Notes: a model not told the origin generated them from the letters alone. Positions 1,815-19,013 are shown, counted from the first letter of the stretch. The stretch is 44,549 nt of DNA from Bdellovibrionales bacterium (GCA_020435205.1 JAGQZY010000010.1:1-44549); one strand, 5' to 3'. A program made the numbers and translations.

Positions 1815-2360
1815 ATGTTGAAAATTTCAGTTGAGGATTTTAATGGATCTCTTGATCGAGAAAAAAATGTCCGGGATATTTTTTTCTTAACTACTAAAAA
1901 GAAAACTTTTTTATCTATTGAAGCTAAAAATTCATTTTATGAGCGTTGGATGTCTTTTTATTTAAAAGGAATAGATAGTGGAGTTTTGTTGGCTATAAAT
2001 GAAGTAGACCAAGTTTGTGGCTATTTGAGTTACTGTATCGATAGTAAAAGGGCAAAGTTCTATTTTTCTCACTGGCTATCCTATTATGACCTCTTTGAAG
2101 ATCTGTATGCTCAGTACCCAGCTCACTTACATATAAATGCTCATCCTGACTTTCAGGGACAAGGCGTCGGGAAAACCCTCGTTCATAGTTTGATTCAGAG
2201 GTTACAAGAGGCCGGCGGTTGTGGATTACATCTGGTGACAGATCCTGATGCGAACAATGTCCAGTTTTACAAAAAAATGGGATTTCTTGAGACTTTTTGT
2301 AGGCAGATAAATGGCCAGGATTACCTGTTTATGGGGCAAAGATGGGATTTCAAGTCATAA
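1815..2360 (+). CDS. GNAT-family N-acetyltransferase
   Basis: This 181-residue protein is predicted to move an acetyl group from acetyl-CoA to an unknown amine. Motif A, the acetyl-CoA pyrophosphate loop, is QGQGVGK at residues 114-120. It is preceded by the beta-4 strand HLHINAHPDF and followed by a motif-B region NNVQFYKKMGF. The stretch YPAHLHINAHPDFQG resembles the GNAT-like C-terminal domain of O-GlcNAcase-type proteins, but here the acetyl-CoA loop looks intact. The ribosome binding site is weak (TTGAG). The gene is AT-rich, like the two genes that follow on the same strand, and may belong to the putative acyl-transfer cassette. The substrate cannot be read from the sequence. Confidence 0.8.
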   Translation: MLKISVEDFNGSLDREKNVRDIFFLTTKKKTFLSIEAKNSFYERWMSFYLKGIDSGVLLAINEVDQVCGYLSYCIDSKRAKFYFSHWLSYYDLFEDLYAQYPAHLHINAHPDFQGQGVGKTLVHSLIQRLQEAGGCGLHLVTDPDANNVQFYKKMGFLETFCRQINGQDYLFMGQRWDFKS

Positions 2361-2416
2361 AACCTAAATGATGAAAATTTATTGAGGATTTTTCTTTGCA
2401 TTTATAGAATAGGATC

Positions 2417-3754
2417 ATGAGATTTGAACAGTGGCTGTCAAAAATCCAACTTCACCAAGTTAAGCAAAATCGTTTAGAAACCTGGAAGAAGAGTGATTTA
2501 CAAAATATTTATCAACAATTGTCTAAGATTTTGATCGAGTGCAAAGAGGGAAGCCTCATCTATCTGGCCCTCAAAGATCAAAGGCTTCTTCTTCTTTCCA
2601 TACTTGTGTGCCTTGACTGTAACCTTCACCCTATTCCTGAGTACGAGTATTCAATAGATTCTGATAAGGACTTTATTAAAAATCATTTGAATCCAGCCTA
2701 TTTTCTTCACTATAAAAATAAAAGGTTTGTGAAAAGCGAATCTAAGTCGGGAAAAATTCAATGGAATGCTGAGCCTGGTATTATTTTTCAGACCTCAGGT
2801 AGCTCTGGAATCCCTAAGTTTGTTCATCAACCTTTGAGTCATCTTCTTTACAATGCTCAAGTCGCTGCTGAAAGGCAAGCTATGGATGAACTGACTCGAG
2901 CTTTGATCCCTTTGACCCTTAGCCATACGGGTGGCTTGAATATGCAAACTTTACCGGCTCTTTATAGTGGTGGCTCTATAGAGTTTGTAGATAAGCGAGC
3001 TCCAAGCCAGATGCATAAAAGATTATTTTCTGGATCCATAACCCACGCGGTTCTGGTCCCTAACCATCTTAGGCAAGCTCTCTCAGCGAAAAAGTGGCTC
3101 CAAGAGGATTTTGTAAATAATCTAAAAGTTCTTACGGGGTCTTGCCCCGTTGACTATCATCTTTTTAGTGAAGTGAATAAACGTGGAGGAAAACTTCTTT
3201 CTGTTTATGGACTCACTGAGATTGGCCCCTTCCTATCATGCCAAGACAAAGGGATTCCTCCGAAAAAGGGGCAAGCTGTGTTAGGTCAGTTTCAAAAGGC
3301 TTATAAATATCGAATAGGTAGTGATCAACAAATTGAAGTCATGGGGCCTACGGCGGGTTCTTATTTGTCGCTTGTAGAGAATAATTATATTGTGACATCT
3401 TGTGGTGAGCCCTGGGTGAAAACAGGTGATTTAGGAATTGAGGTTAATGGACAGCTTGAATTTTTTGGTCGAATCAACAGGCAAATTAATTTTGCAGGCT
3501 TTAAGTTTTACCCAGAGGAGGTGGAAGCTTGCCTGTTATTGCTGCCAGAAGTCCATTTTTGTAGAGTCTATGGTCTTGCCGACCCAGTCTATAATCAACT
3601 TCCTGCAGTTGATATTGTCGGGGACTTCAAAGAAGTATCAGTCCTAAAGAATCATTTAAAAAAGCATCTTCACCCTCTAAAAGTACCAAAGGTATGGAAT
3701 ATTGTGGAGCAGATAGGGCTAACATCTATCGATAAAGTCAGTGGCAATTTTTAA
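2417..3754 (+). CDS. AMP-forming acyl/aminoacyl ligase (ANL superfamily)
   Basis: This 445-residue adenylate-forming enzyme should activate a carboxylic or amino acid with ATP and pass it to a thiol such as CoA or a carrier protein. The core motifs are present in order: phosphate loop TSGSSGIPK at residues 126-134, YGLTE at 264-268, TGD at 336-338 and GRINRQINFAGFKF at 351-364. Lys440 sits where the A10 catalytic lysine is expected, though the usual Gly before it is Asp. The protein is shorter at the N-terminus than most acyl-CoA synthetases (about 500-550 residues), closer to MenE or DltA-like enzymes. It overlaps the SGNH gene by 14 bases, so the two are coupled. With the MBOAT gene nearby it may supply the activated acyl group. 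The substrate is unknown. Confidence 0.85.
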   Translation: MRFEQWLSKIQLHQVKQNRLETWKKSDLQNIYQQLSKILIECKEGSLIYLALKDQRLLLLSILVCLDCNLHPIPEYEYSIDSDKDFIKNHLNPAYFLHYKNKRFVKSESKSGKIQWNAEPGIIFQTSGSSGIPKFVHQPLSHLLYNAQVAAERQAMDELTRALIPLTLSHTGGLNMQTLPALYSGGSIEFVDKRAPSQMHKRLFSGSITHAVLVPNHLRQALSAKKWLQEDFVNNLKVLTGSCPVDYHLFSEVNKRGGKLLSVYGLTEIGPFLSCQDKGIPPKKGQAVLGQFQKAYKYRIGSDQQIEVMGPTAGSYLSLVENNYIVTSCGEPWVKTGDLGIEVNGQLEFFGRINRQINFAGFKFYPEEVEACLLLLPEVHFCRVYGLADPVYNQLPAVDIVGDFKEVSVLKNHLKKHLHPLKVPKVWNIVEQIGLTSIDKVSGNF

Positions 3755-4901
3755 AAAAGCACTTATTTTTATATTAGTAACGACACTTGTGATGGAAGCG
3801 ACGATTCGATTAGCTTACTACTTTTGGCCACTAGAGTTTTTTCAGAGATACTATAATTCCGAAAATTATCAAAATCATCAGTTTGACTTCAATGAACCAA
3901 GTCGAAACCATTATCATGTGAATGGTCTTGGTGCAGTTGGCGACATTTATAAAGGGCAACCAATACGGATAGCCTTATTTGGCGAAAGTCCCACCCATCA
4001 AAAAGAGCTATCTATGGAAAAAAGATGGCCAGAATTAATGAGAAGCCATTGGGGAAAAAACAAGGTTCATGTTGATAATTTTTCTATCGGCAATATTTCG
4101 CCGATAAATATTTTGAGAGAATTAAAGTTTTTAAAAAAACTAGGAATCCGCTACGATCTCATTTTTCTGTCGTTCAATTATAGTCCCAAAGACCCCGCGA
4201 ACAATATCACCTATGATGCTCGATGGCAGCCTCGAAAGGGCTTATCTTTATTTTACCTGTTGAAGAAGTTGTTCTTAGATTGGAAAAGTAAGCAGAACCT
4301 AAACGATTTCAATCAAACAGATCCCAGCAACATAGATTGGTATAAAAATAAGAATCAAAGCTCGATAAGCTCTAGAGAGCTTCGTCAAAGTTTAGAATTA
4401 AAAAATCTATTTATTGAAAAGAAGCCCCAAACTCCAAAAGAGCAGAAAGATCAATTTCGTAAAAGTCTGTCGGAAATCATTGAGGTCGCCCACTCTATGA
4501 GCCCCTGTGTTATTTGGTCGCCATCTTCGCGGATAGCCTATCGAGATAATATGCTAACCTCATATAAAGCGAGGTATATGTATCTTCATCCTATCTATCC
4601 CCTGACTGTTCCAAGGCAGTATTTGAATGCGAAGTCTTTAGCCAGCTTGTGGGATCTCCGTGCCGACCAGTCTACAGCGATTGCCATGCAAATGGGATTG
4701 CCTGTTCTGGATTGGCTCAAGGTCTTGGTCGCACAAATTGACCAAGAAGAAGATTTATTTCTTGATGAGTTCCATATTTCAGAAAAAGGAGCGATTTGGG
4801 TAGCAAAGTTCTTAGAGGAACGTCTTTTGAGTAATGACAGTTGCTTTAGAATGAATAGTAGAGAAAGCCTTGAGGAGCCCACCGGCTTAAAATCAAAATA
4901 G
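3741..4901 (+). CDS. membrane-anchored SGNH/GDSL-hydrolase-like protein
   Basis: This 386-residue protein has a single N-terminal membrane anchor (residues 5-28) and an outward-facing SGNH-type domain. The nucleophile block is ALFGES with Ser83 (GES instead of GDS). A second block around SFNYSPKDP carries the Asn. The closing DxxH block is Asp342 and His345 in DEFHISEKG. Partners of MBOAT proteins in surface polymer acylation (DltD, AlgJ/AlgX, PatB types) have this fold. The start is GTG 3741, inside the upstream ligase gene. Its ribosome binding site is poor, so translation is probably coupled. An ATG at 3792 would cut into the membrane anchor. The 3' end overlaps the MBOAT gene on the opposite strand. 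Confidence 0.75.
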   Translation: MAIFKKALIFILVTTLVMEATIRLAYYFWPLEFFQRYYNSENYQNHQFDFNEPSRNHYHVNGLGAVGDIYKGQPIRIALFGESPTHQKELSMEKRWPELMRSHWGKNKVHVDNFSIGNISPINILRELKFLKKLGIRYDLIFLSFNYSPKDPANNITYDARWQPRKGLSLFYLLKKLFLDWKSKQNLNDFNQTDPSNIDWYKNKNQSSISSRELRQSLELKNLFIEKKPQTPKEQKDQFRKSLSEIIEVAHSMSPCVIWSPSSRIAYRDNMLTSYKARYMYLHPIYPLTVPRQYLNAKSLASLWDLRADQSTAIAMQMGLPVLDWLKVLVAQIDQEEDLFLDEFHISEKGAIWVAKFLEERLLSNDSCFRMNSRESLEEPTGLKSK

Positions 4902-6222
4902 CACTCAGGGCGACTCCCCAAAAAATGCCTTGGATCCAAGGACTTCTATCTAAAATGTAGAATTCATTTTTTGTTTTTAATTGAATCGTTTCAAACATAA
5001 ATAAAGGCAAGAGAAATTGGGAAGCGTAGATTAAAAGGGCCGTTGTTTCGTGGCCCCAGGGTTGGCATTGAAGAATGGAACTGATCATTTTGGTAAACTG
5101 CGTCCAGTCCTGAGATCTATGTAAGGCTCCACTCAGAACATAGATAGTAAGCATAGAAAGATAGCCAAAAGAGCGAAAGCACCAGGCTGGCAGCTTCCAT
5201 CTCTGTTTAGCAAGAAAGCGATCAACGACAATAGCCGCCCCATGCATCAACCCAAAGCATAGCCAATTCCAGGTGGCGCGGTGCCAGAGACCGACCATCG
5301 CCATAATGAGAAGAAGTTGGATATAGAGATGTCCTTCACGCTTCTTTTTATCCCTGAAAGGCAAAACCATATAATCGCGAATCCATTCAGTGAGGCTGAT
5401 ATGCCAATTTTGCCAAAATTGACTGGGTCGGTAGCTTGTAAAAAATGGCTTAAAGTTGACCATAAGCTTTATTCCAAAAAGGCGAGCCATTCCACGGGCC
5501 ATATCACTGTAGCCAGAAAAATCACAATAGACCTGACAGACCATGAGCAGGCTTGCCACCAAGGCTAATCCTGAGGAAGGTGTGCTTCCTGAAAAAATAG
5601 CGTCAACAGGAACAGAAAGAGAGTTTGCAACAAATATCTTTTTGAAAAGGCCAAGGGTGATTAAGTAAACTCCCTCATGGAGTTGTCGAAAGCTGACTTT
5701 GCGCTGACTTTCTAGTTGAGGCAAAAGCCGGCGAGCCTTTTCAATAGGGCCCATAATGAGTTGAGGGAAAAAGGATACATAAAGAGCAAAATTGACTATG
5801 TTTTTGGTATGTTTAATTTTGCCTTTATAGACATCAAAAGTGTAGCTCAGAGTCTGAAAGGTGTAGAAGCTGATACCTAAAGGAATACCCCATCGACTAA
5901 AATTTTTTAGAAAATCAGTTGAGGGAAAGAGGTCATGGGTATATTTGAACAAGAACAGCATTCCTAAATTAATGAAAAGACTGATTCCCAATCCCCAATT
6001 TCTTTTTTTGGTACTATTTCCGGCCTCAACCATAAAACCACAAAAATAATCAGTAACCGTTGAAATTAAAATGATAGGGAGAAAGTGCCAGGACCAGGAC
6101 GCGTAAAATAAATAGCTGCAAATGAGCAAAAAACCGTTGCGTAGCGCCAAGGACGACAGAATATGGTAGGCTCCAAGGATCCCGAGGAAAAGTAACCAAA
6201 ACTCAAAGCTGTCAAATCCCAA
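4846..6222 (-). CDS. MBOAT-family membrane O-acyltransferase (AlgI/DltB-like)
   Basis: This polytopic protein of about 458 residues is expected to move an acyl group across the inner membrane onto an extracytoplasmic acceptor. It has about ten hydrophobic segments. The family segment FWQNWHISLTEWIRDYMVLPF is followed by GLWHRATWNWLCFGLMHG, with the two conserved histidines near residues 314 and 327 (GLWHR instead of the usual GLWHG). The first in-frame start is TTG 6234. I prefer the TTG at 6222, because GGAG lies 6 bases before it, and neither choice changes the domain. The last 56 bases overlap the convergent SGNH gene. The acyl group and acceptor polymer are unknown. The neighbouring ligase and SGNH protein suggest a common pathway. 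Confidence 0.85.
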   Translation of the reverse strand: MGFDSFEFWLLFLGILGAYHILSSLALRNGFLLICSYLFYASWSWHFLPIILISTVTDYFCGFMVEAGNSTKKRNWGLGISLFINLGMLFLFKYTHDLFPSTDFLKNFSRWGIPLGISFYTFQTLSYTFDVYKGKIKHTKNIVNFALYVSFFPQLIMGPIEKARRLLPQLESQRKVSFRQLHEGVYLITLGLFKKIFVANSLSVPVDAIFSGSTPSSGLALVASLLMVCQVYCDFSGYSDMARGMARLFGIKLMVNFKPFFTSYRPSQFWQNWHISLTEWIRDYMVLPFRDKKKREGHLYIQLLLIMAMVGLWHRATWNWLCFGLMHGAAIVVDRFLAKQRWKLPAWCFRSFGYLSMLTIYVLSGALHRSQDWTQFTKMISSILQCQPWGHETTALLIYASQFLLPLFMFETIQLKTKNEFYILDRSPWIQGIFWGVALSAILILSRWAPQGFLYYSF

Positions 6223-6234
6223 GCCTATCTCCAA

Positions 6235-6270: not shown

Positions 6271-6498
6271 ATGATTGTCCGCTCTATCAACCATCTTAAG
6301 GATGTGCATCAAAGTTATTGGAAGCATGGAAGCTTTGCTGTTCGTTGGGGTTTTTATATCATTTTTTTGGGTATAGCATCTATCATCCATGGCTTTGTTC
6401 CAGCACTTTTCCCGTTTTTGACCCCGGATGGAATTAAAAAAATCTCAAAGATGATTGATGAGATGGAAGCCAACCGGCCGAAATCAAAACAGAGTTAA
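6271..6498 (+). CDS. DUF6356-like small membrane protein, possibly leaderless
   Basis: This 75-residue protein has an N-terminal amphipathic part (SINHLKDVHQSYWKHGSFAVRW), then a hydrophobic segment at about residues 25-48 containing IHGFVPALFPF. The pattern of His-x-x-x-x-x-x-Tyr with a HGxxPALF core resembles the uncharacterised DUF6356 family. Its function is unknown. I chose ATG 6271 because the upstream in-frame alternative at 6235 falls inside the -35 element. The transcript would then start at or one base before the ATG, with no Shine-Dalgarno. It is convergent with the pilin-like gene, with 9 bases between the stops. Confidence 0.65.
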   Translation: MIVRSINHLKDVHQSYWKHGSFAVRWGFYIIFLGIASIIHGFVPALFPFLTPDGIKKISKMIDEMEANRPKSKQS

Positions 6499-9146: not shown

Positions 9147-9968
9147 TCAACCTTTATGGTTAATCATGTGAATATCCCTCTGAGGAAACGGGATAGATAT
9201 GCTGGCTTGATCGAGTGTGGATTTAATTTGCTCATTGAGCTGAAAAAAAACATCCCAATAGTCCTCTGTGTTGGTCCACGGGCGTATAGTCAGATCAATG
9301 GAGCTATCACCATAACCAATCACTCCCACAAAGGGGGCCGGATCCTTTAAAACCTTTGGGTGTGCTAGGCACATCTGAGTTAAGCACTCACAAGCTTTTT
9401 TAATGTCGTCGCCATAGCTAATGCCTACGGATAGATCCACTCTTCTTTTTTGCGCACCTGTCACGTTGCGAATAACGCCACCGATAAGGGGACCGTTGGG
9501 AATAATGACAATTTGATTGTCGAGTTTGTGAATGACCGTTGCGAAGATATCAATTTTTTCAACAGTGCCCTCTTCGCCTTGGGCGACGATGAAGTCCCCT
9601 TTTTTGAATGGACGGAAAATAAGCAGCAGCACGCCACCAGCCAAATTGGCCAGACTTCCTTGTAGCGCAAGACCCACGGCCAAGCCGGCGGCTCCAATCA
9701 CAGCGACAAATGAGGTGGTTTCGATCCCAACCATGGAGGCCACAGAAATGACGAGCATGGCTTTTAGGCCCCAGCTCACCAAGTTGACAAAGAAGGGCTT
9801 TAGAGTAGGATCCAGTTTCCTTTTTTCAAGCAGAGCCGCTAAGAAGCGAGAGAGGCTGCGAATAACGGCAAGTCCAATGATCAGTACCAGAATGGCGAGG
9901 ATCAGTTTGGGGCCGTACTCAATCAGCATTTCAGTGGCTTTATCAATGTGTCCCGTTAAATTTTCCAT
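9147..9968 (-). CDS. mscS: small-conductance mechanosensitive channel MscS
   Basis: This 273-residue inner-membrane channel releases solutes on hypo-osmotic shock. It has three N-terminal membrane segments. The third is the glycine/alanine-rich pore helix containing AAGLAVGLALQGSLANLAGG, followed by the beta-domain motif FKKGDFI and the conserved VIIPNGPL. The length matches E. coli MscS (286) closely. The start is ATG 9968, with a GGGGGAG ribosome binding site just upstream. A 27-codon membrane peptide gene precedes it by 95 bases and a glycosyltransferase follows after 7 bases. An osmoprotectant importer lies further upstream on the same strand, separated by rnpB. Confidence 0.95.
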   Translation of the reverse strand: MENLTGHIDKATEMLIEYGPKLILAILVLIIGLAVIRSLSRFLAALLEKRKLDPTLKPFFVNLVSWGLKAMLVISVASMVGIETTSFVAVIGAAGLAVGLALQGSLANLAGGVLLLIFRPFKKGDFIVAQGEEGTVEKIDIFATVIHKLDNQIVIIPNGPLIGGVIRNVTGAQKRRVDLSVGISYGDDIKKACECLTQMCLAHPKVLKDPAPFVGVIGYGDSSIDLTIRPWTNTEDYWDVFFQLNEQIKSTLDQASISIPFPQRDIHMINHKG

Positions 9969-10063
9969 AGCTCCCCCTATGCCATAAGAATGAAAACTAT
10001 AAAGGGAGAGGTCAAAGGAAAACCCCGATGATTCGATTCGTAAAATTGGAAAGGAAATTCAAT

Positions 10064-10147
10064 TTAGATGAGGAGAGCGTAACCAATGATGCCGATGACA
10101 CTGAATATGGCGATTTTCATGGCATATTTGGGTCTCTTTTGTGACAT
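10064..10147 (-). CDS. 27-residue single-pass membrane peptide
   Basis: A short reading frame starts at ATG 10147 and stops with TAA at 10066-10064. It has a textbook ribosome binding site, AAGGAG, 6 bases upstream of the ATG. The product begins with the basic stretch MSQKRPKYAMK and continues with the hydrophobic IAIFSVIGIIGYALLI, enough for one membrane helix with a cytoplasmic N-terminus. No family is recognised. It lies 95 bases upstream of mscS on the same strand, so co-transcription is likely. The overlapping plus-strand frame (10086-10370) has a poorly placed ribosome binding site and no recognisable composition. The clear ribosome binding site and the charge-then-helix pattern support the minus-strand reading. 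Confidence 0.55.
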   Translation of the reverse strand: MSQKRPKYAMKIAIFSVIGIIGYALLI

Positions 10148-10436
10148 CAACGGCTCCTTACATACCCCTATCGGTGAAACCGCTCTAGACTTTAGCAGTA
10201 TTAGAGATTTTGGCGCAGTTTCTCGCATTGAGACTCAGCCAGTCGGCCAAAAATTTTGGATTCACTCTTCTCGATCCATGTCGAGGTCGGAAAAATGGCG
10301 CGATTTCATAGAGGGTATTTCTCCGGGCTGCCAAATATTATCGAGTTATTCCAGTAACCTATGTGCCTAACTCCGGGTTATTGATCCTTCATCAAAAAGA
10401 GTGAGTCTAGCCAAGTTATTTGATAAAAGGGTGGTA
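10148..10436. other. intergenic region upstream of rnpB
   Basis: This 289-base gap separates the divergent membrane-peptide/mscS unit and rnpB. It must carry the promoters of both. I see no strong consensus for rnpB; the best -10-like element is GATAAA near 10422, without a good -35. The long plus-strand frame across it shows no protein-like features. No repeat or further RNA structure is evident. Confidence 0.4.
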
Positions 10437-10757
10437 AGGATTGGTAAGTTATCGCTCCCATTGGGAGAGGAAAGTCCGGACTTCACAGGCAGCGCAAGGG
10501 GTAACGCCCCTCCACCGTAAGGTGAGGACCAGTGGAACAGAGAGAATGTCCAGAGCTATGATCCTTAGGCTGGGAACGGGAAGTCTAAGGGGAGTTGCTG
10601 GAGTGAAAACAGCTAAACTCTGCGCGAAGCAAGATCAAATAGGGAAGGGTTTGAGTGTGCCTGCACGAACCTTCCGGGTTGATCGCTTAAGGGTGTCAGT
10701 AATGCCACTCTCAGATGAATGATAACTCACGACAGAATCCGGCTTATCGCCGATCCT
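10437..10757 (+). ncRNA. rnpB: RNase P RNA, bacterial class A
   Basis: This is the catalytic RNA of RNase P, which trims the 5' ends of tRNA precursors. The conserved core GAGGAAAGTCCGGACTTC is at 10467-10484. The matching 3' part, with AGATGAATGATAACTCACGA and then CAGAATCCGGCTTAT, is at 10713-10746. AGCAAGATCAAATAGGG near 10628 corresponds to the conserved AGCAAGGCCAAATAGGG. The ends were set by P1 pairing of AGGATTGG (10437-10444) with CCGATCCT (10750-10757) and P2 pairing of AAGTTATC with GATAACTC. The region between P4 and the P15/L15 area is somewhat divergent from E. coli. End positions may be off by a few bases. Confidence 0.95.
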
Positions 10758-10760
10758 CGT

Positions 10761-10793
10761 GGGGGAGGTCTTCGGACCTCCCCCCAATTTTTT
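10761..10793 (+). terminator. rho-independent terminator of rnpB
   Basis: A perfect 10-bp stem GGGGGAGGTC / GACCTCCCCC (10761-10770 and 10775-10784) with a TTCG tetraloop is followed by TTTTTT at 10788-10793. The T-tract runs into the stop codon of the minus-strand osmoprotectant gene (10792-10794). Confidence 0.93.
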
Positions 10794-12255
10794 AAAGACT
10801 TCTTGAAAAATACCTTTCGACTCCAGCAAATCCCAAGTCCACAAGGATCGCCAGTAGGGCTGCAGGTAGGGCGCCTTGCAAAATCATGGTCGTATCATTG
10901 AGCGCAAGGCCGGTCACAATGGGCTCACCCAAGCCTCCAGCACCAATAAAGGCAGCCAGAGTTGCCGTCCCAATATTTAAAATGGTTGCCGTCCTTATGC
11001 CAGCCAAGATCATGGGGAAACTGAGGGGCAATTTGACTTTAAAGAAAATCTCCCATGGATAAAGACCGATCCCTCGGGCTGATAATATTAAGCGAGGGTC
11101 AATCGTCATCAGAGCCGTGTAAGCGTTGCGAAGGATGGGGAGCATGGAATAAATCAAGAGTCCGATGAGCGCAGGGAGAAACCCAATACCAAACAATGGA
11201 ATCATAAAAGTGAGTAGAGCAATGGATGGAATAGTTTGTAAAATGCCAGCCAACCCCAAAACCCAGCTCGCTAGTTTTTTGCTCCCTAAAATAAAGACAC
11301 TTAAAGGCAGGGCCAAGCAGGTTGCTAGAAGCACGGCCAATAGTGTGAGTTGGAGGTGCTCACGAGTGCGACGCCATAAAGCTTGCCAATTAAAGCCACC
11401 AAACTCCGAAAACCCTTGGTCTTCTTTTAATTTTTTATTTACCAAAAAATCATGGGCAATTTTAGCAAAGGACTCGCCCCCTCGGGTGGCTCGATCATTA
11501 AGATCCATCATTTCTTGATCATTGAGGGTGCCGCCGAGCTGATCCAATAGGGCTTTCACTTCGGGGAGAGAGGAGTCGACTAAATAAGCGCCATGGTATT
11601 TAGGGAAAAAATTCTTATCATCTTCTAAGATGACAAAGTCATACTTTTTAATCAAAGAATCTGTCGAATACACTTCAGCAAAATCGACTTTATCATTTTT
11701 TAAGGCTTCATAAGTTAAAGGGATTTCAACCCCTCTGAGTTTATTTTTTAAGCCATAGATTTGCTTCAACTGAGGCCAACCATCTTCTCGATTTTGAAAT
11801 TCAAAGCTGAGCGCGCCTTCAAGCTCAGGGTGCTTTGCTAAATCGCTAATTGTTGCTAAGCCCATTTTCTGCTGTCTATCCCGAGTCACTACGAGGGCAT
11901 AGGTATTGTTGAAACCTAAGGGTTTGGTGAGATCCATCTGTAAGGGCTGAAGCTTTCTTTTTAAAAAGGGAAGGCTTGAGTCTCGTTCTTTAAAAATGGC
12001 ACGGGCAATGGTGCCCGTGTACTCCGGGTAGATGTCGATTTCCCCGGTGCGAAGGGCATCAAAAGCAATCAAAGTGCCGCCAAAACCAAATCGTCTCTTT
12101 ACCTCAAATCCATGTTCTTCTAAAAATTGGGCTGCGATTTCTGCTAAAATAAAATTTTCCGTGAATTTTTTACTGCCGATATGGATGGGTTCCGCTTTTA
12201 GGCTAAAAGGAATAAAAATCAAGGTAAACAGAAGGCAGGCCGCTTTATAAAGCAT
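10792..12255 (-). CDS. osmoprotectant ABC transporter, fused substrate-binding and permease protein
   Basis: This 487-residue fusion belongs to a glycine betaine/choline/carnitine type importer (OpuC/ProXW class). Residues 1-21 are a signal peptide. Residues about 22-270 are an OpuAC-type binding domain, starting IHIGSKKFTENFILAEI and containing GEIDIYPEYTGT. Residues about 290-487 form a permease with about five or six membrane segments, and its ARGIGLYPWEIFFKVKLPLSFP region is the coupling-helix (EAA) loop that contacts the ATPase. With the binding domain first, it would face the periplasm. The start ATG 12255 overlaps the upstream ATPase gene by 11 bases, so the two genes form a complete importer operon. 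The exact ligand is not readable. Confidence 0.9.
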   Translation of the reverse strand: MLYKAACLLFTLIFIPFSLKAEPIHIGSKKFTENFILAEIAAQFLEEHGFEVKRRFGFGGTLIAFDALRTGEIDIYPEYTGTIARAIFKERDSSLPFLKRKLQPLQMDLTKPLGFNNTYALVVTRDRQQKMGLATISDLAKHPELEGALSFEFQNREDGWPQLKQIYGLKNKLRGVEIPLTYEALKNDKVDFAEVYSTDSLIKKYDFVILEDDKNFFPKYHGAYLVDSSLPEVKALLDQLGGTLNDQEMMDLNDRATRGGESFAKIAHDFLVNKKLKEDQGFSEFGGFNWQALWRRTREHLQLTLLAVLLATCLALPLSVFILGSKKLASWVLGLAGILQTIPSIALLTFMIPLFGIGFLPALIGLLIYSMLPILRNAYTALMTIDPRLILSARGIGLYPWEIFFKVKLPLSFPMILAGIRTATILNIGTATLAAFIGAGGLGEPIVTGLALNDTTMILQGALPAALLAILVDLGFAGVERYFSRSL

Positions 12256-13360
12256 CTAAAGCCTCCTTGCTAAATACGCCAGCAATGAACCCTTGCGAGT
12301 CTAAAACAGGTATAGAGTTGAGGCCACTGTCTAAGATTTTTTTCATACCTAAAAGAAGGGTATCTTGAGTACAAAGGGGGTTCTTCAAGTCAATAGCTTG
12401 CCCATCTAAGCTGTGTAGTTCTTTAAATGCACCTTTTTCATCGACCCAGTAAATAAATGTTTGATTGATGGTTTCTAGATAAGAGCGTAAGTCCCCAAGG
12501 CTTGTGAAGTTGAGAGTCTGTTCAGAGGCCAAATTTCTGCAGTGAATTCCATTCCCTTTGTTCACTGAAATCCACAAATCGTTATTGATAGTTGCGTAGA
12601 GCTTAATTCCCTCTAGCATTTTACCTGGAGAGTGTGAGTCGACGAATCGTTTGACATAATCTGACTGAGGCGCCAGGAGATAGCGGCTCGGTCGACTTTT
12701 TTGCTCGACCCTGCCTTTATTGAGAAGGACGATCTCATCACCCATTAAAAAAGCTTCGCTTAAATCATGAGTGACAAGAACGATGGTTAATTTGAGTTTT
12801 TGCTGAAGAAGAGCGAATTCATTTTGGATTTCATCACGAGTGATCGGGTCGAGCGCACCAAATGGCTCGTCCATGAGTAAGATTTTGGGTGACATGAAAA
12901 GGGCGCGGGCAATGCCGATGCGTTGCTGTTGACCTCCGCTGATCTGTCGAGGGCGTTTTCTGTAGAAGTTAGTGTCTGTTGGTAAATTCAAAAGGCTACA
13001 GAGTTCGTCTGCGCGGCTCAAGATTTTAGATTTCTCCCACCCTTCTTTCTTGGCAATAATTGACATGTTTTCCAGCAGAGTCATATGAGGGAAAAGGCCA
13101 CTTCCTTGAATAGAGTATCCCATTCCTCGGCGCCATTTTTCGGCTTGAGAAAAGTCAAAAGCTTTTCCGCTCAGAAAAACTTGACCTTGCTGAGGTTTCA
13201 ACAGACCATTCATCAAACGCAAAATTGTCGTTTTTCCGCTGCCACTTTCGCCGATCAGGCAAAATGTTTTTCCTTGTTCAATTTCTAGGTTAAAGTCCGC
13301 TAAAATGGGACTTGCGCCGTAGGAAAAATGAATATTTTTCATAGAAATAGCGGAAAGCAT
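12245..13360 (-). CDS. osmoprotectant ABC transporter ATPase with CBS domains
   Basis: This 371-residue ATPase energises the fused binding/permease partner encoded next. Residues 5-240 are the nucleotide-binding domain: Walker A GESGSGKTT (37-45), signature ISGGQQQR, Walker B ILLMDEP and the switch histidine in VTHD. Residues about 250-371 form a CBS pair, which in OpuA-type ATPases senses ionic strength or nucleotides. ATG 13360 is used. An internal ATG at 13342 would also leave the domain intact, and neither has a strong ribosome binding site. The protein most resembles OpuCA/ProV-type ATPases. Confidence 0.92.
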   Translation of the reverse strand: MLSAISMKNIHFSYGASPILADFNLEIEQGKTFCLIGESGSGKTTILRLMNGLLKPQQGQVFLSGKAFDFSQAEKWRRGMGYSIQGSGLFPHMTLLENMSIIAKKEGWEKSKILSRADELCSLLNLPTDTNFYRKRPRQISGGQQQRIGIARALFMSPKILLMDEPFGALDPITRDEIQNEFALLQQKLKLTIVLVTHDLSEAFLMGDEIVLLNKGRVEQKSRPSRYLLAPQSDYVKRFVDSHSPGKMLEGIKLYATINNDLWISVNKGNGIHCRNLASEQTLNFTSLGDLRSYLETINQTFIYWVDEKGAFKELHSLDGQAIDLKNPLCTQDTLLLGMKKILDSGLNSIPVLDSQGFIAGVFSKEALDAL

Positions 13361-13457
13361 TCTTATTTAGAACATTGAACAGGATTTTAGACAATTTGTC
13401 TTGCGTCTGTTGGTCAGAGTTATATTGTTACAGAATCAGCGAAAGTTCTGCTGTTGG

Positions 13458-14489
13458 CTAAAGATCTTTCTTTTTTCCATAAATGAGTAATTCAGCACCT
13501 AAGCGCCATCCCGGTGAATGGTGAAGGCGAGTCCAGTAGAGAAATTGAAAGTAAGGGCTTAGCTTTTCTCTGAGTTCCCACTCACTTCCGCCAAAATAGG
13601 GACCTGTTCTTTTAGGGACAACAAAAAAAATTCCCAACAAGTGGCCCTCTGGTGCGAGACACTGCCGCCAAACCTGAATGAGCTTAGAACGCCTTTGTGG
13701 AGTGATGGCGCAATAGCAGGTGTGTTCAAAAATAAGATCAAAAGCTTCCTTGTACTCTTTCCCTAATTCAAAGACATCAGCCTTTACAAATTCCAAGTTC
13801 TCTAAGTGGCCATAGCGATCTTGTGCGCCCTCAAGAGCCTTCTCACTCATATCAACGGCAGTGACAACAAAACCTTTCTCGGCAAGATAGGCAGCGTCGT
13901 GGCCGTAGCCACAGCCGGCCACGAGGACTCGTTGTTTTTGCAATTTTAATTGGTGCAAAGAGCTTTCTAGTTCTGGATGGGGCTTTTGCAGGTCCCAATT
14001 AGGGATAGGTTTTTCATTATACACATCGGTCCAGAACTGAGCGAGGTTGGCGTCTAAGTTTTCAATATAGTAGTTGGGGGTTTGGTATTCCTTGCCAAGT
14101 AAATGTATGGATTCATCAGTAAAATCTTCAGCTAAATTGAAAAGTTCAGCTTGTGCTGTTCTAGAAAGAACAAAGGGAATTCCATTTTCAGCCACACCAT
14201 GAAAGCGGTCCCACTCATCCAAGCTTAGGCTTTGTGGATCAAAACCCTGGCGAAATTGATAGGGCATTTGTATCCACCAATGACCATCCATGACGCCAAT
14301 CTGTCGAGCGATATAGGGTTTATCAAAAGCTTCGACCAGAACCTCGGCCCCTTGGTAGTGCGTGGTGATCACTCCAAATTCATTCATTGAAAAATGTTTA
14401 AGAAGCTCTTGGCCGTAGGTTTCATCTTTAACCCGTAGCCCTTGGTAGTCTTTGAAGTAGCCCTCTTCGTCGAGGACAATCGCTTTCAT
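13458..14489 (-). CDS. TPMT-like SAM-dependent methyltransferase with an extra N-terminal domain
   Basis: This 343-residue protein has a C-terminal methyltransferase domain (about residues 145-343) of the thiopurine S-methyltransferase type. AQFWTDVYNEKPIPNW is the family entry motif, VLVAGCGYGHDAAYLAEKG is the SAM loop and FDLIFEHTCYCAI is motif IV. The first ~130 residues are extra. Their pattern, with EEGYFKDYQGLRV followed by a strand-rich part, vaguely recalls the DUF1285 fold, but I am not sure. The ATG at 14489 overlaps the stop of the upstream gene as TAATG, so translation is coupled. The substrate is unknown; small thiol, selenium or tellurium compounds are typical for this family. 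Confidence 0.8.
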   Translation of the reverse strand: MKAIVLDEEGYFKDYQGLRVKDETYGQELLKHFSMNEFGVITTHYQGAEVLVEAFDKPYIARQIGVMDGHWWIQMPYQFRQGFDPQSLSLDEWDRFHGVAENGIPFVLSRTAQAELFNLAEDFTDESIHLLGKEYQTPNYYIENLDANLAQFWTDVYNEKPIPNWDLQKPHPELESSLHQLKLQKQRVLVAGCGYGHDAAYLAEKGFVVTAVDMSEKALEGAQDRYGHLENLEFVKADVFELGKEYKEAFDLIFEHTCYCAITPQRRSKLIQVWRQCLAPEGHLLGIFFVVPKRTGPYFGGSEWELREKLSPYFQFLYWTRLHHSPGWRLGAELLIYGKKKDL

Positions 14490-14953
14490 TATTCCGCTTC
14501 AGGAGAGTTTTCACCCTCATCGGCGGTCTCTTCAGCGGGCTCGCCTTGCGGAACGGAACCATCAGAGTAAATTTCAAAAGGCTCTAAGAATTCAACTTTG
14601 GTATCACCAGCTTGCTCAATCTGAGCTTTCCATTTGTCGCCATCTTCAGAAGTGACCATAAAGCTACCCTCTCGGTGGACGCGCTCCATTTGTCCCTGGT
14701 CATTGGGGGCAAGGTAGGACAGATTAAAGTGAACTCTCATTTTGCGCCCACTCTCAAGAGATTCCGTGCGTAGAGTATCGAATTCGACTTCTTGAATGTT
14801 CGGTTGGTTTTCCATCATGGCTTCAGCAAGGTAATCAGCAATGATATTTTCCATTTTGTTAATTTGCTGGGCTGACAATCCGCCTGTTTGCTGGGCAAAC
14901 CACCATGTGAACGCAATAAAAATGACCACGACGACCAGGCTTAAATACTTCAT
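14489..14953 (-). CDS. membrane-anchored periplasmic protein of unknown function
   Basis: This 154-residue protein starts with one hydrophobic segment (residues 3-19), probably a signal anchor, and then a mostly acidic soluble domain. The tail is very rich in Glu (PAEETADEGENSPEAE). I chose ATG 14953, because AGAGG lies 6 bases upstream. An upstream in-frame start at 14977 would put eight extra residues in front of the signal. It shares a TAATG overlap with the downstream methyltransferase gene, so the two form an operon. No family is recognised. Confidence 0.65.
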   Translation of the reverse strand: MKYLSLVVVVIFIAFTWWFAQQTGGLSAQQINKMENIIADYLAEAMMENQPNIQEVEFDTLRTESLESGRKMRVHFNLSYLAPNDQGQMERVHREGSFMVTSEDGDKWKAQIEQAGDTKVEFLEPFEIYSDGSVPQGEPAEETADEGENSPEAE

Positions 14954-15044
14954 GAAAAACCTCTTTGTTGAATACACTGTTATTGTGCCTTTGATTGGGC
15001 CGGCAGTAAATGCCTATGCCGTTCATGGCACCTGGCGATCTGGC

Positions 15045-15062
15045 GCGTCATAGACGTGACGC
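15045..15062. promoter_or_regulatory. inverted repeat, candidate operator of the liu operon
   Basis: GCGTCA (15045-15050) and TGACGC (15057-15062) form a perfect 6-bp inverted repeat with a 6-base spacer. It lies about 36 bases upstream of the candidate -35 of the leucine-degradation operon, a position suited to a dimeric regulator. The regulator is not in the window. Confidence 0.4.
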
Positions 15063-15097
15063 AAATCAGAAACTGCCAGCCAGCCCCTTTCGCAAAG

Positions 15098-15126
15098 TTG
15101 TTTAAATTCTTGAATTTGTCTATGGT
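15098..15126 (+). promoter_or_regulatory. candidate promoter of the liu operon
   Basis: TTGTTT at 15098-15103, a 17-base spacer and TATGGT at 15121-15126 form a moderate sigma-70-type promoter. Transcription would start very near the AAGGAG ribosome binding site at 15133-15138, leaving a leader of about 11 bases, so an upstream promoter is also possible. Confidence 0.4.
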
Positions 15127-15143
15127 CCAGGCAAGGAGTCTTC

Positions 15144-16751
15144 ATGCCGGTTCTCAATAGCCAATTGGATGTGCAATCCTCTCAGTACCAATCCAATTTT
15201 CAAAGTATGCAAAATTTGGTGGATGAATTTAAAGCCAGAGTCCAACAAGTCAAATTGGGAGGCGGGGAGCAGGCCATGGAGCGCCATCGTTCCCGAGGTA
15301 AACTGACCGCCCGTGAGCGCATTGATGCACTGATTGATCCTGGTTCGGCCTTTTTGGAACTTTCCACTTTGGCGGCCTGGGATATGTACGGTGGTTCAGT
15401 ATCTTCCGCAGGTGTTGTTACGGGCATAGGTGTTATCCATCAGCAAGAGTGCATGCTTGTTGCTAATGATGCCACTGTGAAAGGGGGAACCTATTTCCCT
15501 TTAACGGTGAAAAAGCACTTGCGCGCTCAAGAAATTGCCATGGAAAATGCACTGCCTTGCATTTATTTAGTGGATAGTGGTGGCGCCTTTCTGCCAATGC
15601 AGGATGAGGTCTTTCCAGATCGAGATCACTTCGGCAGAATCTTTTATAATCAAGCGCAGATGTCGGCACAAAATATTCCTCAGGTTGCGGTGGTGATGGG
15701 GAGTTGTACCGCAGGAGGAGCCTATGTTCCGGCCATGAGTGATGAAAATATTATCGTCAAAGGCAATGGAACGATTTTCCTCGGTGGCCCACCCTTGGTG
15801 AGAGCGGCCACTGGAGAAGAGGTGAGTGCTGAAGACTTAGGAGGGGCACAAGTCCACAGTTATACATCTGGTGTGACTGATCATATTGCCGAAAACGACG
15901 AGCATGCGCTACAGATTTGCCGAGATATCGTGAGCCACCTTAATCGTAAGAAAAAGTCTCCACTTTTAATGAAGGCTAATGAAAACCCTATCTACTCCGC
16001 GGATGAACTTTACGGTGTGATATCTGCGGACTCTCGCATTCCCTTTGACGTCAAAGAGGTCATTGCAAGAATCGTTGACGGTAGTGATTTTCACGAATTC
16101 AAAAGCGGGTATGGTTCCACGTTAGTGACAGGCTTTGCCCACATTTGGGGAATGCCAATAGGGATTGTCGCTAACAATGGCGTTTTATTTAGTGAGTCTG
16201 CAATGAAGGCTGCCCATTTTATAGAACTTTGTGATCAGCGCAGGATTCCCCTCTTATTCCTGCAGAACATCACTGGTTTTATGGTGGGTAGGAAATATGA
16301 AAATGAGGGGATCGCCAAGCATGGGGCCAAGATGGTTATGGCTGTGAGCAACGCGAGTGTTCCCAAATTCACAGTTGTTATTGGTGGCTCTTATGGGGCT
16401 GGAAACTATGGTATGTGTGGGCGGGCCTATCAGCCCCGGCAACTTTGGATGTGGCCCAATGCAAAGATTTCAGTGATGGGTGGTGAACAAGCTGCCAATG
16501 TATTGTTGACGGTGAAGCTCGATCAGCTGGCAAAAAAGGGGGAGTCACTGTCCCAAAAACAACAAGATGAATTTAAAGCTCCCATTTTGGAAAAATATCA
16601 AAAAGAAAGCTCGGCTTATTATTCTTCGGCGCGACTATGGGACGATGGCATCATCGATCCCAAAGACACTCGTCGAGTGGTCGCTCTGGGTATGCAAGCA
16701 GCGTTGAATAAAGCGTGGGGGCCGATCCGCCACGGTGTTTTTCGAATGTAG
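15144..16751 (+). CDS. liuB: methylcrotonyl-CoA carboxylase beta (carboxyltransferase) subunit
   Basis: This 535-residue carboxyltransferase subunit moves CO2 from carboxybiotin to 3-methylcrotonyl-CoA in leucine breakdown. The length and sequence match the MCC-beta branch: [18 protein letters not shown] near the N-terminus, then [19 protein letters not shown], a [17 protein letters not shown] segment typical of MCC, and [15 protein letters not shown] for acyl-CoA binding. The C-terminal half has [16 protein letters not shown]. The start is ATG 15144, with AAGGAG 5 bases upstream. It is the first gene of a five-gene operon with 6 bases to the next gene. The alpha subunit functions are encoded by two separate genes downstream. 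Confidence 0.94.
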
Positions 16752-16757
16752 GTTTGA

Positions 16758-17528
16758 ATGAAAACGATTGAGATTGCAAAAAATAATAAAATATCTGTTT
16801 TGACTTTGAAGCGCCCAGATGTTCGCAATGCTTTTGATGATGCGATGATTGCCGAACTCACGCAAGCTTTTCACGATTTGAAAAATGAAGAAAGCTGCCG
16901 AGTTTTAATTTTGCAAGGTGCTGGTGAGAGTTTTTGTGCAGGTGCCGACCTTAACTGGATGAAGAGCATGGCTCAGTTCTCACGCGAGGACAATTTGGAA
17001 GATTCTAGAAAGCTCCAACAGATGTTTGAAGCTTTGGCTCAGTTACCTATGCCAGTCATCGGCAAAATCCATGGTCACGCCATGGGAGGAGGCATGGGGC
17101 TTGTCGCTTTGTGTGACGTTGTCGCTGCTGTCGAAGGAACCAAATTCTGCTTTAGTGAAGTCCGATTGGGTATTGCACCTGCTGTGATCTCGCCTTATGT
17201 CGCCCGTAAGTTGAGTCGAAGTCAAATGCAGCGCTGGTTTTTAACCGCTGAAATTTTTGAAGCTGCACAGGCGGTAGACATGGGCTGGGCCCATGTCTAT
17301 GGTGATAGAGCTGCCGTCGATGAGTTTGTGGAAAACACGGCGGAAAAAATCAGCCGCAATGGGCCTTGTGCCGTCCGGGCCACAAAAAAAATAATTAACA
17401 AATTATTTGATGAGGGTGATGACATACATACACAAACCATCCAATGGATAGCGGATCTGCGCGTGAGTCCTGAGGGGCAAGAAGGAATGCAAGCCTTCTT
17501 TGAAAAACGAAAACCCAACTGGATATAA
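16758..17528 (+). CDS. liuC: enoyl-CoA hydratase family protein, probable methylglutaconyl-CoA hydratase
   Basis: This 256-residue crotonase-fold enzyme is predicted to hydrate 3-methylglutaconyl-CoA to HMG-CoA, the step between the carboxylase and HMG-CoA lyase encoded on either side. The oxyanion-hole motifs are ESFCAGADLNWM and GHAMGGGMGLVALCD, and SEVRLGIAPAVISPYV carries a conserved Glu. The family is clear. The exact substrate is inferred from the operon and from the MCC-type SEVRLGIAPAVISPYV signature common in liuC products. It starts 6 bases after liuB and ends 3 bases before the biotin carboxylase gene. Confidence 0.88.
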   Translation: MKTIEIAKNNKISVLTLKRPDVRNAFDDAMIAELTQAFHDLKNEESCRVLILQGAGESFCAGADLNWMKSMAQFSREDNLEDSRKLQQMFEALAQLPMPVIGKIHGHAMGGGMGLVALCDVVAAVEGTKFCFSEVRLGIAPAVISPYVARKLSRSQMQRWFLTAEIFEAAQAVDMGWAHVYGDRAAVDEFVENTAEKISRNGPCAVRATKKIINKLFDEGDDIHTQTIQWIADLRVSPEGQEGMQAFFEKRKPNWI

Positions 17529-17531
17529 TGA

Positions 17532-19013
17532 ATGATGAGTGATTTTACAAAAGTAGCTATAGCCAATCGAGGTGAAGTCGCCGTCCGCATTATCCGGGCC
17601 TGCCAAGAGTTGGGTTTACAAACGGTACTTCTTCATTCCAAGGCTGATGTAGGGAGTCGGGCCTACCGGTTGAGCGACCATTGCATTTGTATTGGTGATA
17701 GTCCGGTCGGGGAGAGCTATCTTTCTATTGAACGCAACATTGATGGGATCTTAGCTAGCGGTGCTGAGGCAGTCCACCCCGGTTTTGGCTTTCTTTCTGA
17801 GAATGCTGATTTTGCAAGGGTTCTTGAGCAAAAAGGGATTACATTTATCGGGCCTTCTGCTGATGTTATCGAAAAAATGGGCGATAAAATAGCTGCAAAA
17901 AAAATCATTGAAAAAGCAGGCCTTCCTACAGTTCCTGGTTACAATGGCGACGACCAATCCATTGATCATCTTATCAAAGAAGCAGAGAAGATAGGCTATC
18001 CTGTTATTGCCAAAGCCGCAGCCGGTGGCGGTGGGCGGGGCATGAAGGTCATAGAAAATAAATCGCAAGCCCGAGAGATGATCGAAGCTGCAAAGCGGGA
18101 GGGCCAAGCGGCTTTTGGGAGTGACAAGATTTTCCTGGAAAAGTATTTGAACAGGGCGAAGCATATAGAGGTTCAAATTTTTGGCGATCTTGCTGGCCAA
18201 GTGGTGCACCTTTTTGAAAGAGAATGCTCGATCCAACGTCGGCATCAAAAAATAATTGAAGAAGCCTTGTCCCCCTCTCTGGACCACAAGTTGCGAAACC
18301 AGCTGACCCATGCGGCGGTGACTCTAGCTAAAGAGGTGGGATATGTTGGCGCAGGTACAGTTGAGTTTTTAGTACAAGATGGTCAGTTTTATTTTCTAGA
18401 AATGAACACTCGGTTGCAGGTAGAGCATCCGGTCACTGAATTAGTTTTGGGTGTTGATCTTGTGAAGGCCCAGGTTTTAACCATGATGAATCGCTTTGCT
18501 GTATGGGATCAAGATATATTGGTGCCAAGAGGCCACGCCATCGAATGTCGAATTTATGCCGAAGATCCTTATACTGCCGGCATCCCTTCTACGGGAATTT
18601 TAGGTCATCAATATTGGCCTCAGGGCCCGGGAAGACGTTTTGAAGTGGCCTTTGATGAAGGCGACGAAGTCACCCCTTACTATGACTCTATGATTGCAAA
18701 AGCCATTGTTTGGGACGAAACTCGCAGTCGTGCCATCATGAAAATGCAAAGAGTTTTATCAGAAATTGTGCTGTTTGGTGTAAAAACCAATATTCCTCTT
18801 TTGCAACAAATGTTAGCCCATCCTGAGTTTATTGATGGGAGTTTTAACACCCAGTTTGTTAACTCGTATTTTGCTGAAGGCGCTATCCAGAGAGATCGTG
18901 AAAATTGGAAGGAGCAGCTGGCTCAAATCGCCTATCAGAAGGTGTCTGAAGCTCCTCATTCCAATAGCTCTTCGACTCTTTCGCCCTGGTCTCAGGACTG
19001 GAGGAATGTGTGA
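17532..19013 (+). CDS. liuD: biotin carboxylase component of methylcrotonyl-CoA carboxylase
   Basis: This 493-residue ATP-dependent enzyme carboxylates biotin. The N-terminal domain begins KVAIANRGEVAVRIIRACQ. The ATP-grasp domain has KAAAGGGGRGMKVI, ECSIQRRHQKIIEEAL and FLEMNTRLQVEHPVTE. The protein stops after the biotin carboxylase C-terminal domain. It lacks the roughly 150-200 residue BT linker and biotinyl domain that usual MCC alpha subunits (about 650-670 residues) carry. The missing biotinyl part is supplied by the next gene, which overlaps by 4 bases (GTGTGA). The start is ATG 17532, or the next codon ATG at 17535. The assignment to MCC rather than to acetyl- or propionyl-CoA carboxylase rests on the operon. 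Confidence 0.9.
   Translation: MMSDFTKVAIANRGEVAVRIIRACQELGLQTVLLHSKADVGSRAYRLSDHCICIGDSPVGESYLSIERNIDGILASGAEAVHPGFGFLSENADFARVLEQKGITFIGPSADVIEKMGDKIAAKKIIEKAGLPTVPGYNGDDQSIDHLIKEAEKIGYPVIAKAAAGGGGRGMKVIENKSQAREMIEAAKREGQAAFGSDKIFLEKYLNRAKHIEVQIFGDLAGQVVHLFERECSIQRRHQKIIEEALSPSLDHKLRNQLTHAAVTLAKEVGYVGAGTVEFLVQDGQFYFLEMNTRLQVEHPVTELVLGVDLVKAQVLTMMNRFAVWDQDILVPRGHAIECRIYAEDPYTAGIPSTGILGHQYWPQGPGRRFEVAFDEGDEVTPYYDSMIAKAIVWDETRSRAIMKMQRVLSEIVLFGVKTNIPLLQQMLAHPEFIDGSFNTQFVNSYFAEGAIQRDRENWKEQLAQIAYQKVSEAPHSNSSSTLSPWSQDWRNV

Follow-up and report, generated by a model that had tools for sequence, protein, structure and literature searches.

Gene content of the locus

We analysed a window of 44,549 nucleotides from a Bdellovibrionales bacterium (GCA_020435205.1, JAGQZY010000010.1), which is the entire contig 11 of a genome of 2.83 Mb in 167 contigs (G000). 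The left part of the window carries, in this order, genes for a GNAT acetyltransferase, an AMP-forming ligase, an SGNH-type protein, an MBOAT and a DUF6356 protein. A sequence-only reading of this DNA had described a ligase with intact core motifs that overlaps an anchored SGNH gene, with an MBOAT gene opposite, and this arrangement was confirmed, the first four genes lying at the coordinates given below; that reading did not include two features, the DUF6356 gene beside the MBOAT and the acyl-shuttle motif at the MBOAT C-terminus. The features of the locus were:

1815-2360, + strand: GNAT acetyltransferase (Pfam Acetyltransf_1, 8.5e-11)
2417-3754, + strand: AMP-forming (ANL superfamily) ligase, 445 aa (Pfam AMP-binding, AMP-binding_C)
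2780-2830, + strand: P-loop of the ligase (motif alignment)
3734-3736, + strand: A10 lysine of the ligase, K440 (motif alignment)
3741-4901, + strand: SGNH-type acyltransferase/hydrolase, 386 aa, GTG start, one N-terminal membrane anchor (invariant S/D/H, fold match)
3987-3989, + strand: Ser83 of the SGNH protein (alignment)
4764-4766, + strand: Asp342 of the SGNH protein (alignment)
4773-4775, + strand: His345 of the SGNH protein (alignment)
4846-6234, - strand: MBOAT, 462 aa (PF03062, 2.8e-18)
4849-4866, - strand: C-terminal acyl-shuttle hexapeptide FLYYSF of the MBOAT (FxYxxF; read from the sequence)
4858-4860, - strand: Tyr459 of FLYYSF (sequence)
5281-5283, - strand: catalytic His318 of the MBOAT (invariant in alignment)
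6271-6498, + strand: DUF6356 small membrane protein, about 75 aa (PF19883, 2.8e-13)

The ligase and SGNH genes overlap by 14 nt, while the SGNH and MBOAT genes are convergent and their 3' ends overlap by 56 nt. Translation of the MBOAT probably starts at TTG 6222 and not at 6234, since a GGAG lies upstream and the related proteins begin with M/V-SFD; the MBOAT and DUF6356 genes are divergent and separated by ~48 nt, on the assumption that TTG 6222 and ATG 6271 are the true starts. In the window the ligase and the MBOAT do not share an operon, since they are on opposite strands.

The GC content of the cassette region (0.37-0.44) was slightly below the 0.38-0.49 measured for the remaining part of the first 16 kb. 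In the closest genome (G001, same genus) the block 9147-19013 is kept but the cassette side is not, and we found no match to the window MBOAT in that genome; the cassette therefore lies within a variable region. The whole left 9 kb of the contig (1-9139) is missing at the syntenic place in G001 (L258). Further along the same contig (20282-24179) there is a run of pantothenate/CoA synthesis genes, with aspartate decarboxylase, type III pantothenate kinase and pantoate ligase identified by Pfam and coaBC- and panB-like genes recognised by eye, which is probably unrelated to the cassette.

Domain and motif analysis of the encoded proteins

The ligase belongs to the ANL superfamily: the P-loop, A5, A7, A8 and A10 lysine motifs were all found (TSGSSGIPK, YGLTE, TGD, GR... 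and K440), with Pfam matches to AMP-binding (2.2e-17) and AMP-binding_C (1.3e-5), and its C-terminal end is atypical (IDKVSGNF). Its nearest NCBIfam model was menE (TIGR01923; 101.6 bits against a cut-off of 330), followed by a fatty-acid CoA ligase subfamily, and the best fold matches of its AlphaFold model (pLDDT 72.5) were oxalyl-CoA synthetase, aryl-acid ligases and MenE. MenE and the small-acid CoA ligases (oxalyl-, malonyl-, aryl-CoA) are thus its best matches by both sequence and fold; the cassette ligase, however, adjoins MBOAT and SGNH genes and not menaquinone genes. We rejected an identity as MenE, which the sequence-only reading had given as an example of a result that would refute its proposal, on the score far below the cut-off and on a sparse distribution in the class that is unlike that of a housekeeping MenE.

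At the A4 site the window ligase reads LSHTGG, and the ligases of all cassettes show LSHxGG or something close to it (HxGG) where a Dlt-type ligase (L060) has FDxS. The Asp of FDxS is the amino-acid-binding residue of adenylation domains, and its replacement makes an alpha-amino acid unlikely as the ligase substrate. We predict that the ligase is an acyl-CoA ligase for a non-amino carboxylic acid.

The SGNH protein had no significant Pfam match by sequence. Ser83, Asp342 and His345 were invariant in alignments with the SGNH proteins of other cassettes, and a low-confidence AlphaFold model (pLDDT 55, pTM 0.54) matched SGNH hydrolases of the PDB, TesA among others (probability 1.00, E 1.7e-6).

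The MBOAT is the only one in its genome. Its best NCBIfam model was DltB, below the cut-off, and DltB was also its only PDB homologue by sequence (1e-21). The conserved His was seen in five of the six members of its clade (L131 among them), and the protein ends with F[LVI]Y[YF]xF in all six. The locus therefore holds the parts of an MBOAT-SGNH pair, namely His318 and the FLYYSF tail in the MBOAT and, in the adjacent gene, an anchored SGNH protein with Ser, Asp and His. In PatA the invariant Tyr of a C-terminal FxYxxF is acetylated directly from acetyl-CoA, a conserved His is needed, and the acetyl group is handed on to a Ser of PatB, while in the Dlt system a carrier is the donor and the Tyr is located on DltX (PMC12148441).

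Recurrence of the cassette and phylogeny

Each window protein was searched against sixty relatives; ligase and SGNH profiles were run against 144 genomes of the class, and the ligase profile also against 369 genomes of the phylum. The sequence-only reading had proposed a search of related genomes for such co-occurrence. A ligase of this small family does occur again with MBOAT and SGNH genes, in four further Bdellovibrionales loci, each from a different genome: L067 (in G036), L068 (G015), L069 (G033) and L131, from a Pseudobdellovibrio MAG (G097, JAJFMT010000083.1). L067, L068 and L069 share one genus, so that the ligase-bearing cassettes represent three genus-level lineages. The ligase family is not found in the sister genome G001 nor in nearly all of the class, where it is nearly confined to MBOAT/SGNH cassette loci; the G097 ligase scored 257 bits with the profile, and the ligases that came next, which are unrelated, reached 171 bits. 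Among named genomes, a single-sequence scan with the window ligase gave no match, and the profile scan recovered Pseudobdellovibrio, Bdellovibrionota KLAP46 and Bdellovibrionaceae MAG-399. Outside the phylum, the profile scan returned only one locus with an MBOAT, from Clostridia, and its ligase falls outside the cassette group.

The six MBOATs (window, L067, L068, L069, L131 and L132) formed one clade (100/99), within which the window, L131 and L132 proteins formed a subclade (100/98). The five cassette ligases, only about 24-27% identical across loci, grouped with 91 SH-aLRT in a 116-row tree and 90/84 in a 37-row tree, a moderate support that is below the strong threshold of the tree tool, and the window branch is long. 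The window and L131 ligases joined at 98/93, a node at which the tree tool flags a meeting of long branches. The MBOATs of these two loci are 40% identical, and L131 has the same layout as the window, with SGNH and ligase genes on one strand, the MBOAT gene opposite and the DUF6356 gene divergent from it, although its SGNH protein belongs to another subfamily. A glycosyltransferase at first taken as common to both loci was discarded, as the two proteins are not homologous.

The genes might be chance neighbours, that is, a housekeeping or catabolic ligase beside an unrelated convergent MBOAT gene, and the opposite strand of the MBOAT in the window and a gene order that differs between lineages would agree with this. 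However, a ligase is expected within 3 kb of an MBOAT by chance in about 1-2% of cases per genome and was observed in five genomes of three lineages, which exceeds chance; the MBOATs and the ligases each form coherent groups, and Pseudobdellovibrio repeats the layout together with DUF6356. We regard chance as a very improbable explanation.

A different alternative is that the MBOAT-SGNH pair is an ordinary acetyl-CoA O-acetyltransferase of the PatA/PatB or AlgI/AlgJ type, with the ligase serving another pathway or feeding a scavenged acid to the CoA pool. In most MBOAT loci of the order the MBOAT is paired with an SGNH gene and no ligase is present, and PatA itself uses acetyl-CoA (PMC12148441). 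One member of the same MBOAT clade (L132, in G114) has MBOAT, SGNH and DUF6356 genes and no ligase on its 9.5-kb contig, which means that the ligase is not obligatory. Against this, a ligase of one family lies beside the MBOAT and SGNH genes in five of the six clade members and is nearly restricted to such loci in the class, and it overlaps an SGNH gene or lies within about 10 nt of one in the window, L069 and L131. We consider plain acetylation unlikely, though it deserves weight.

Carrier proteins

No carrier gene was present among the annotated ORFs around the window cassette, nor beside the cassette in the four other ligase-bearing loci, in line with the sequence-only reading, which had seen none in the neighbourhood. 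We searched six genomes for carriers with PF00550. In the window genome it matched a small carrier of the AcpP type, next to FabG/FabF-like genes, and twice a carrier domain within a 2,682-aa PKS-like protein, with one further sub-threshold match in a 1,844-aa frame, while the Pseudobdellovibrio genome (G097, 86% complete), searched to E = 1, holds a single AcpP-like carrier; in neither of the two did PF00550 detect a dedicated small carrier besides AcpP. One carrier was found in G114. Several further small carriers occur in the g14 genomes, none of them beside the cassette. A dedicated carrier in G097 would probably have been seen, because PF00550 does recognise, at 15.9-24.8 bits, the divergent carriers (82-85 aa) that other MBOAT-ligase clusters of the order encode, and the search was extended to E = 1. 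The single AcpP-like carrier of the 86% complete G097 genome therefore makes a carrier encoded elsewhere, one of two options in the sequence-only reading, unlikely; its other option, the use of CoA, fits. AcpP itself is a possible acyl donor.

These results bear on a Dlt-like explanation, according to which the ligase would load either the housekeeping AcpP or a carrier from another part of the genome, from which the MBOAT would then take the acyl group. Three loci of the same order (L080, L085 and L086) do pair a ligase with a small carrier, and DltB is the best NCBIfam model for the MBOAT. The lack of a dedicated small carrier in G000 and G097 speaks against it, and so does the MBOAT's own shuttle motif, which the DltB-type proteins of the class (381-391 aa) do not have. 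We judge this explanation to be decidedly unlikely. The shuttle motif is not by itself evidence for CoA as opposed to a carrier, because it or a near variant also occurs in the MBOATs of the carrier-containing clusters L080, L085 and L086.

Those three clusters (L080:7137-12181, L085:1383-11457 and L086:8061-14738) combine an MBOAT, an AMP-forming ligase and usually an SGNH-type gene in one neighbourhood, as the cassette does, but they hold an 82-85 aa carrier, and neither their ligases nor their MBOATs belong to the cassette groups; they are possibly uncharacterised Dlt-like acylation systems. Another locus (L078:1506-7205) has MBOAT, SGNH-like, small hotdog-like and ligase genes in one run and no carrier on the contig, and resembles, by eye only, an aryl-polyene-type cluster.

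Neighbouring genes

DUF6356 was found in 4 of the 144 class genomes: in three it lies beside this MBOAT clade, next to the MBOAT gene in the window and in L131 (L131:7702-7980) and next to the SGNH gene in L132 (L132:3721-4011), and in the fourth it is fused to an FAD-NAD(P) domain. It may assist the acylation system, which gives this family, without described function, a possible setting. A homology to DltX had no support, the two being different Pfam families. Elsewhere, four of eight inspected DUF6356 contexts were sulfur-related (loci include L235, L239, L240 and L244), with cysDN-like genes, phosphosulfolactate synthase/phosphatase, a TauE/SafE sulfite exporter and a sulfate exporter family, and several had an Lrp/AsnC regulator. 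These contexts hint weakly at a sulfonate or another strong acid as the acid used by the ligase.

The GNAT gene, which the sequence-only reading had counted in the set, had no homologue in the other cassette loci. We dropped it from the cassette, and judging by this distribution it is probably not part of the unit.

Proposed acylation system

We lean towards the reading that the ligase, the MBOAT and the SGNH protein form an envelope acylation system that does not need a dedicated carrier protein. The cytoplasmic ligase would activate a free carboxylic acid other than an alpha-amino acid by adenylation and join it to CoA; the MBOAT would take the acyl group from CoA by means of its conserved His and place it on Tyr459 of its own FLYYSF tail, on the outer face of the inner membrane; the SGNH protein, held by its membrane anchor, would then accept it on its Ser and esterify a periplasmic or surface glycan. 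We infer the acyl-CoA donor and the Tyr and Ser relay from the chemistry of PatA/PatB and Dlt, and acyl-CoA is suggested as donor by the lack of a dedicated carrier together with the PatA precedent (PMC12148441).

The Gram-negative peptidoglycan O-acetyltransferase PatA/PatB, AlgI/AlgJ/AlgX and WssH/WssI share with the cassette a separate MBOAT with an FxYxxF tail, an SGNH protein, the lack of a carrier and an expected acyl-CoA donor; they use acetyl-CoA and have no ligase of their own, whereas the cassette adds an AMP-forming ligase and often DUF6356. With the Dlt D-alanylation system (DltX/A/B/C/D) it shares an ANL ligase, an MBOAT and an SGNH protein, but it has neither the DltC carrier nor a separate DltX, the shuttle motif being fused to the MBOAT, and its ligase does not have the FDxS Asp of amino-acid-activating domains. 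The cassette is probably a combination of known parts, with the ligase of one pathway and the carrier-free chemistry of another.

To our knowledge, the known bacterial MBOAT-SGNH systems either rely on acetyl-CoA and have no ligase, or pair a ligase with a carrier. Our searches of the open-access literature returned neither an account of a carrier-free set of ligase, MBOAT and SGNH genes nor a paper that connects MBOAT, SGNH and AMP-binding gene clusters; a match for MBOAT and acyl-CoA ligase concerned other operons. That an unusual acyl group is added to a surface polymer, as the sequence-only reading had proposed, is plausible. More tentatively, with somewhat less than even confidence, we suggest a third envelope-acylation architecture, in which a special acid, neither an amino acid nor acetate, would be attached directly to CoA by a ligase devoted to this task, and the MBOAT-SGNH pair would then carry it outward to a surface polymer. 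If true, a ligase-fed, carrier-free version would bring new acyl groups to surface polymers without the evolution of a carrier, in a three-gene module; the bacteria that carry it are related to predatory ones, and little is known of their surface chemistry.

An envelope polysaccharide as acceptor fits the genes near two of the cassettes, L068 and L069, where a UDP-glucose dehydrogenase fused to an NAD-dependent epimerase/decarboxylase-like domain (L068:3385-5856 and L069:2971-5334) and an HAD phosphatase were found. In L069 (L069:7027-12231), one ligase and one MBOAT are flanked by three different SGNH genes, as if one acyl donor served several acceptors.
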